32,717 bases of DNA, taken from NCBI GenBank assembly GCA_018665385.1, contig JABJDN010000048.1, positions 1 to 32,717 on the forward strand, written 5' to 3'. Under the pieces are notes generated by a model. The model made no database searches, was not told the DNA's origin, and worked only from the letters and a program-made list of their open reading frames with translations. The stretch's first letter is position 1. Each line of letters opens with the position of its first letter. The stretch is from Phycisphaerae bacterium. Lineage in GTDB: Bacteria > Planctomycetota > Phycisphaerae > Phycisphaerales > SM1A02. The position numbers were made by a program, and so were the translations under genes. Of the stretch, positions 6,118 to 7,070 are shown piece after piece.

Positions 6118-6351
6118 TTAAAAACGGGCGATACGTGGCGGTGGAATTTCTTTTAAATCGTTTCGCTCAAACGAAGATGCGCCTTCGTTTTCTTTTTTAA
6201 TTGCGTCGTACACTTCTTTACGATGGACAGGTATTGAAGAAGGCGCTTTTATACCCACCCGTACCTTATCGCCTCTAATGTCAACGATTGTCAGTTCGAT
6301 GTCGTCACCAATCATTATAGTTTCGTCTTTATGGCGTGATAGCACTAGCAT
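6118..6351 (-). CDS. csrA: Carbon storage regulator CsrA (translational regulator)
   Basis: MLVLSRHKDETIMIGDDIELTIVDIRGDKVRVGIKAPSSIPVHRKEVYDAIKKEN. Start set at the MLVLSR ATG (6351) with GGAAGGA upstream; the ORF track extends to 6369. Confidence 0.96.
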   Translation of the reverse strand: MLVLSRHKDETIMIGDDIELTIVDIRGDKVRVGIKAPSSIPVHRKEVYDAIKKENEGASSFERNDLKEIPPPRIARF

Positions 6352-6412
6352 AGTAGAATCCTTCCTCAAGGTTGTTGCTAAAGTTGCAACTCTGCCGCCC
6401 TTCCCTGGGCAA
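6352..6412 (-). promoter_or_regulatory. Candidate CsrA-binding sites upstream of csrA
   Basis: Minus-strand RNA GCCC-AGGGAA-GGGC (6410-6397, ANGGAN hexaloop) and GAA-GGA-UUC (6364-6356) at the csrA Shine-Dalgarno. Confidence 0.55.
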
Positions 6413-6430
6413 CATCATGTCAAAAATCAA

Positions 6431-6874
6431 TTAAGCAGTCAGTCGTTCCTGGGCTGTGAGCCTCACAATTTCATGCCGAGTAGTCCATCGTTTATCCGCA
6501 AGCACAAGTTGCATTGCTTGATGGTTCGCTAAATTTACAATAATAGGTCCTTGTAAATTTACAGTTAACGTTTGGTCGTATTTGTTCACAATGACAAATG
6601 TTTGTGCGGTTTCAAGAGTTGCCAGCTGCAAGTCATCCATCTGCTCTTTACGAACAGTCGCTTGGTAATCGGGAACCCATGTTGATGGATCCGTTACCAC
6701 AAATGCTAATTCTGATGCTTCAGTTGATTGCAACCAGAAGAACAGACCATCATTATCTGGTTGAAGTAACGCATATTGCGTATAACTAGAGAACCCGAGT
6801 AACCCAGAGGGAAACTCCAAAATTCTACTATCATCAACCTCGACTGTACCGAATCGAGTCGTTTGTACATTCAT
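6431..6874 (-). CDS. fliW: Flagellar assembly factor FliW (CsrA antagonist)
   Basis: RFGTVEVDDSRILEFPSGLLGFSSYTQYALL...LFFWLQSTEASELAFVVTDP...IVNKYDQTLTVNLQGPIIVNLANHQAMQLVL. Directly upstream of csrA, the usual partnership. Confidence 0.95.
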   Translation of the reverse strand: MNVQTTRFGTVEVDDSRILEFPSGLLGFSSYTQYALLQPDNDGLFFWLQSTEASELAFVVTDPSTWVPDYQATVRKEQMDDLQLATLETAQTFVIVNKYDQTLTVNLQGPIIVNLANHQAMQLVLADKRWTTRHEIVRLTAQERLTA

Positions 6875-6950
6875 TCTCTATGCAATCCTTGCTGGTTCTG
6901 TGAATCCTTCAGTGCCCCACTCCGTTAGTGGGTGACATCCTGTCCGAGAT
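6875..6950 (-). promoter_or_regulatory. Candidate CsrA-binding leader of fliW (clustered GGA hairpins)
   Basis: Minus-strand RNA reads GACA-GGA-UGUC (6944-6934), CCCACU-AACGG-AGUGGG (6932-6916), UGAA-GGA-UUCA (6911-6901), GCAA-GGA-UUGC (6892-6882). The last contains the fliW Shine-Dalgarno. Confidence 0.65.
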
Positions 6951-7070
6951 CTGTTCGGCTTGAACCACAAGACCGAATCAACCACATATCATTGTGGTCG
7001 TCTTGCCATCGGCAGTATTGAGCATGTTTCGATAATCTATGTTGGAAGTAAGCGATAAGTCCGGTAATAA

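Follow-up and report, generated by a model that had tools for sequence, protein, structure and literature searches.

A pseudoknotted leader RNA with GGA hairpins upstream of fliW in a planctomycete order, a candidate target of CsrA

The fliW-csrA operon of the window

The stretch of DNA analyzed here (32,717 nt, hereafter the window) carries fliW and csrA next to each other, head to tail, on the minus strand. The question raised by this locus is whether FliW, the protein antagonist of CsrA, could itself be produced under the control of CsrA, acting via the RNA segment that precedes fliW.

The window is a part of a planctomycete-like draft genome of 1.87 Mb in 206 contigs. The fliW gene (147 aa, 6431..6874, minus strand) matched PF02623 with E=7.9e-35, while csrA (77 aa, 6118..6351, minus strand) matched PF02599 with E=1.9e-24. 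The solved structure nearest to the window FliW was 5dmb_A, a FliW crystallized with CsrA. The best solved match of the window CsrA was 5dmb_D, the CsrA chain of the FliW-CsrA complex, and this match was made via the C-terminal extension; the window CsrA resembles the FliW-bound CsrA. Among 101 relatives, fliW was detected in 91.

GGA hairpins upstream of fliW

A preliminary description of this locus had proposed an array of small hairpins at 6875-6950, three of them with a 4-bp stem and a GGA triloop and one of the form CCCAC..GTGGG. All four were found on the minus strand. H1, GACA-GGA-TGTC (6934..6944), was the best conserved GGA hairpin, with the order consensus GAC-AGGAN-GTC. Its CAGGATG matches the CsrB repeat CAGGA(U/A/C)G (PMC7652899). 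H2, CCCAC-TAACGGA-GTGGG (also written CCCACT-AACGG-AGTGGG; 6916..6932), has an order-wide homologue whose stem covaries and whose loop usually contains GGA. The H3 position, TGAA-GGA-TTCA (6901..6911), corresponds in the order to CCAA-GGA-TTGG. The fourth GGA is in the Shine-Dalgarno region of fliW, GCAA-GGA-TTGC (6882..6892).

A count over the entire 32.7 kb, with both strands included, gave eight perfect GGA triloops closed by 4 bp or more; three of the eight were situated within 63 nt at the fliW leader. The 105-nt window leader had three GGA hairpins compared to 0.05 per dinucleotide shuffle; the number three was never reached in 5000 shuffles. The same excess was seen in the 13 leaders of the genus (25 GGA hairpins compared to 0.5 expected) and, for the rest of the order, in 58 leaders (76 compared to 4.6 in shuffles, with the next-best trinucleotide at 11). 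The three perfect hairpins with 4-bp stems and GGA loops are not a product of chance. A local accident of one genome, due to chance or to the purine richness of Shine-Dalgarno-like sequence, would agree with the observation that most congeners form no hairpin at TGAAGGATTCA; the shuffle counts, along with the order-wide conservation and covariation described below, refute a chance origin of the hairpins and make such an explanation extremely improbable.

With respect to the start codon, the GGA triplets of the window leader were at positions -66, -49, -33 and -14, with one more at -71. The neighboring sites were 17, 16 and 19 nt apart, and the distance between the H1 and H2 triplets across the order was ~18 nt. 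A spacing of 18 nt is cited as the optimum for a single CsrA dimer (PMC4894983); the fliW leader thus has the spacing of about 18 nt characteristic of a CsrA-regulated leader. The H1 and H3 loops, on the other hand, had a length of 3 or 5 nt and so differ from the canonical CANGGANG hexaloop. Since the CsrB-type CAGGATG occurs in H1, the canonical hexaloop is a usual rather than a strictly defining feature of a CsrA site.

Extent and fold of the element

While the hairpins of the preliminary description were real, the true extent of the element reaches ~6977 upstream, and a 5' hairpin and a pseudoknot had been overlooked. Judged by the comparison of leaders, fliW is preceded by a structured RNA of ~110 nt, made of the 5' hairpin P1, the hairpins H1-H3, the Shine-Dalgarno GGA and the pseudoknot.

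In the window P1 (6954..6977, minus strand) is formed by TTCGG..CCGAA with the inner pairing CTTG/CAAG. It was also recovered on folding the window sequence, and the P1 stems of the genus were compiled. The apical loop of P1 holds the 5' strand of the pseudoknot, TGGTTC (6962..6967, minus strand), complementary to the 3' strand GAACCA (6893..6898, minus strand; read 6898-6893) located just upstream of the Shine-Dalgarno hairpin. The P1 loop is paired with the segment preceding the Shine-Dalgarno sequence, with H1-H3 between the two strands. Examples of the strand pairs in other leaders are CGGCC/GGCCG, CGGTC/GACCG, TCGACC/GGTCGA, TTGGGCC/GGCCCAA and ACCGACT/GGTCGGT. The P1-loop pairing would correspond to a classical pseudoknot layout, with a very long third loop carrying H1-H3; the pseudoknot probably serves to keep the array in register and to position it against the ribosome site.

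One more hairpin, ACCACA..TGTGGT, was observed upstream of P1 (window ~6998-6981, minus strand). Its stems differ in congeners, e.g. CCGC..GCGG and CTGCC..GGCAG.

Conservation and covariation

Besides the leader of the window, 70 leaders were read, and a structural alignment was made on 37 leaders of the order. In this alignment 91.3% of cells were paired compared to 65.4% in shuffled alignments, and two-sided changes were observed in 26 of the 30 pairs: 11/11 in P1, 6/6 in H2, 3/4 in H3, 2/4 in H1 and 4/5 in the pseudoknot. The covariation score, judged by shuffles and slides in statistics without a phylogenetic null, was 0.632 compared to 0.186 for shuffled and at most 0.101 for slid alignments.

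The pseudoknot was paired in 94.6% of cells of the 37 leaders, with its columns being outside the model of nested helices to which the alignment was fitted. When the pseudoknot partners were swapped within the genus, own and foreign strands were not separated. This swap carries no information, as the strands have a common core and G-U pairing was permitted; the valid test of the pseudoknot is the order-wide shuffle.

Conservation of GGA went beyond the conservation of the stems. Across the order GGA was retained while the flanking stem pairs changed, a feature of CsrA-regulated leaders, and GGA-presenting hairpins with covarying stems were conserved upstream of fliW, the outcome that the preliminary description had expected from a comparison of related leaders. 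Of its individual hairpins, GACAGGATGTC was kept across the order, while TGAAGGATTCA forms a perfect hairpin in the genome of the window and most congeners keep at the H3 position GGA alone, without a stem. The Shine-Dalgarno hairpin was similar in this respect, with GGA in all 13 congeners and a stem in only some of them. For two of the hairpins initially described, then, conservation of the hairpin is only partial, whereas the GGA is nearly always retained. In one congener, L039 (G008), GGA was lost both from H1 (GGCAAAAATC) and from the H3 position (GAAGAATG); this leader offers a naturally occurring variant in which the sites could be tested.

At positions -15..-8, overlapping the Shine-Dalgarno sequence, GGA was present in 13/13 leaders of the genus and in 34/36 leaders of the order. 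This observation bears on the direction of a possible control. Activation of fliW translation by CsrA, for example by stabilizing a pseudoknotted form that frees the Shine-Dalgarno sequence, would fit a pseudoknot ending just upstream of that sequence, and CsrA-mediated activation is known for other mRNAs. Nevertheless, GGA in the Shine-Dalgarno sequence itself points to occlusion, and we consider activation to be unlikely.

Distribution of the element

The first covariance model was built from 8 leaders, whose own matches follow from the training; this does not apply to the other matches. The E-values of the models are rough; with this one, leaders from across the order were recovered, the lowest E being 1e-31. 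The second model (R2), built from 37 leaders, matched 54 of the 101 whole genomes of relatives, each exactly once and immediately upstream of fliW. It missed the other 47, including 11 congeners (the genome of the window among them) that were recovered by the genus model (R3). The latter had one match in each of the 13 genomes of the genus, with 8 of the 13 leaders being its training set. Neither the 13 genus genomes nor the 54 matching relatives had trans-encoded or extra copies of the element.

Some members of the order, e.g. L020, L043 and L062, have fliW without a recognizable element. In four fliW leaders of the genus g46 (L020, L024, L031 and L069) the element was absent and the Shine-Dalgarno sequence was inside GCCG-GAGGAGTA-CGGC, possibly a reduced form of the element. 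In a search of 296 genomes of the phylum (sampled, strict filters) the matches were confined to the same order. Beyond the order, inspection of 24 fliW leaders by eye and by a script found no array, with the one exception of L124, a member of the same class with partial H2/H3-like hairpins. The window had no Rfam match at the gathering threshold. At E<=1 the only Rfam matches were two C/D snoRNA models in L003, far below the threshold. The element appears to be an undescribed family of structured RNA.

By a simple consensus scan, the interval between the upstream gene and fliW had no terminator or attenuator, and the interval from the leader to fliW had no terminator-like site and no strong promoter; the element ends at the fliW start codon.

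Sponge action requires high abundance of an RNA. The leader could be mainly a CsrA-titrating sponge, as the Campylobacter flaA or Salmonella fimA leader, with the control of fliW being secondary: it has several spaced GGA hairpins, one with the CsrB-type CAGGATG, no congener has a second copy of the element, and leaders with a dual function are known (PMC4894983). However, the element keeps a fixed position relative to the fliW start codon and takes in the Shine-Dalgarno GGA of this gene, and in flagellate relatives it sits between flgL and fliW, with no separate RNA. Copies independent of the target gene, as in sponges of the CsrB/RsmZ type, were not observed; the comparison gave a single copy per genome, at fliW. 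A sponge as the main function is improbable, if slightly less so than activation; the leader may nevertheless titrate CsrA, although no observation points specifically to this.

CsrA-type sites in the csrA and flagellin leaders

Sites of the same type were observed at two other genes. The csrA leader of the window has the hairpin TGTTGCCC-AGGGAA-GGGCGGCA (6393..6414, minus strand) with the canonical CsrA hexaloop ANGGAN, while the csrA Shine-Dalgarno sequence, AGG-AAGGAT-TCT (6355..6366, minus strand), is a second candidate CsrA site. These csrA leader sites are conserved in the order: 34 of 71 csrA leaders had a stem of at least four Watson-Crick pairs closing A-N-GGA-N, with variable N and changing stems. 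The hexaloops have the form C-ANGGAN-G, and no other core trinucleotide had a count above 3 in the 71 leaders. In flagellate relatives the flagellin Shine-Dalgarno sequence was within hairpins AATC-A[AC]GGAG-GATT, for example CAATC-AAGGAG-GATTG, and a compensated variant, ACAAAC-AAGGAG-GTTTGT, was present as well. Canonical CsrA-type hexaloop hairpins are present in the order at both csrA and flagellin; the csrA leader suggests autorepression of csrA.

The independent sites at csrA and flagellin bear on the nature of the ligand as well. Pseudoknots are common among ligand-binding RNAs, and the GGA loops could in principle serve a metabolite or a ribosomal or other protein instead of CsrA. Such a ligand is very unlikely given GGA in every hairpin, the operon shared with csrA, the canonical sites at the two other genes, and no match to an Rfam riboswitch.

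Proposed mechanism

We infer, with strong support, that CsrA binds the fliW leader, because GGA is kept while the stems change, the sites are 16-19 nt apart, and hairpins with canonical hexaloops are present at csrA and flagellin. The likely best explanation of all the observations is that CsrA would repress translation of fliW via the pseudoknotted GGA leader and that FliW would release this repression. The preliminary description had already proposed repression of the antagonist by CsrA through these hairpins, a reading that the comparison supports in part. P1 pairs, as a pseudoknot, with the stretch immediately preceding the Shine-Dalgarno sequence; H1-H3 display their GGA between the two strands, and the fourth GGA is in the Shine-Dalgarno sequence. 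Two CsrA dimers, by our estimate of their number, would bind, each bridging two neighboring GGA sites, and the bound CsrA would block ribosome access; free CsrA would then repress the translation of FliW. Plentiful unoccupied FliW would remove CsrA, and the fliW mRNA would be released. The resulting loop at fliW would be positive, nested in the autorepression of csrA. Even in the genus of the window, which has lost its flagella, synthesis of the antagonist FliW is probably under the control of CsrA.

Comparison with known systems

The closest known circuits are those of the Bacillus subtilis hag leader and the Campylobacter jejuni flaA leader, which share with the present system the proteins CsrA, FliW (antagonizing CsrA) and flagellin. 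These leaders, similarly to the fliW leader, have GGA hairpins with one at the Shine-Dalgarno sequence, and the flagellin leaders of flagellate relatives of the window resemble them. The fliW leader differs from hag and flaA in that the controlled gene is fliW itself, a pseudoknot is present, and there are up to four GGA sites. We found no CsrA site at fliW in the open-access literature on FliW-CsrA; a loop in which the protein antagonist of CsrA is itself under CsrA-type RNA sites is unreported in these papers.

The sponge RNAs CsrB/CsrC and RsmX/Y/Z have similar arrays of GGA hairpins, with the CsrB repeat in H1 of the window. Unlike these RNAs, the fliW leader is in cis to an ORF and has about four sites, a conserved pseudoknot, and a single copy tied to fliW. 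The autoregulatory csrA leader likewise has CsrA-type GGA sites both in the Shine-Dalgarno sequence and ahead of it, whereas the csrA leader of the same operon is a distinct element with a distinct fold, in which none of the features compared corresponds to the P1 pseudoknot. The Salmonella fimAICDHF leader (cited in PMC4894983) is also an mRNA leader with CsrA sites; it titrates CsrA and is described as not being a CsrA target itself, while the Shine-Dalgarno site of the fliW leader suggests control in cis.

Bacteria with FliW are thought to have no CsrB-type RNAs, and a 2020 review considered the joint action of FliW and RNAs on CsrA in any species an open question (PMC7652899). The fliW leader makes such a joint action testable.

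Loss of flagella and operon context

In the flagellate relatives flagellin comes after fliW-csrA. In those examined, a gene of a protein with the flagellin C domain, probably FlgL, ends ~125 nt before fliW, and the element fills the gap. In the genus of the window, flagellin was absent from 13/13 genomes (84-98% complete), and so was FliG. A FliW-CsrA-flagellin circuit has the three encoded together; here fliW, csrA and the leader were all retained while flagellin was absent. For the fliW genes of the genus, dN was 0.02-0.15 with dS saturated, and the ratios were 0.04-0.06 where dS could be estimated; fliW in this flagellum-less genus is under purifying selection. The non-motile clade 5 of Clostridioides difficile keeps fliW together with fliC (PMC11898703), in contrast to the genus of the window, where fliW-csrA is present without any flagellin.

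Tentatively, as a possibility that falls somewhat short of probable, the genus may have kept FliW-CsrA for a purpose other than flagellin: FliW would answer to another partner, the leader would link the output of FliW to free CsrA, and a flagellar checkpoint would have become a general post-transcriptional switch.

Two further genera (G015 and G016) kept fliW and the element, with flagellin not detected; both gave a FliG_C match of lower strength than the flagellates did. A second, more divergent CsrA paralogue (PF02599, bits 52-59) was also present in each of the 13 genomes of the window's genus, for example at G000:C57:10605-10772 (L002), and the two CsrA proteins could compete for the sites of the fliW leader.
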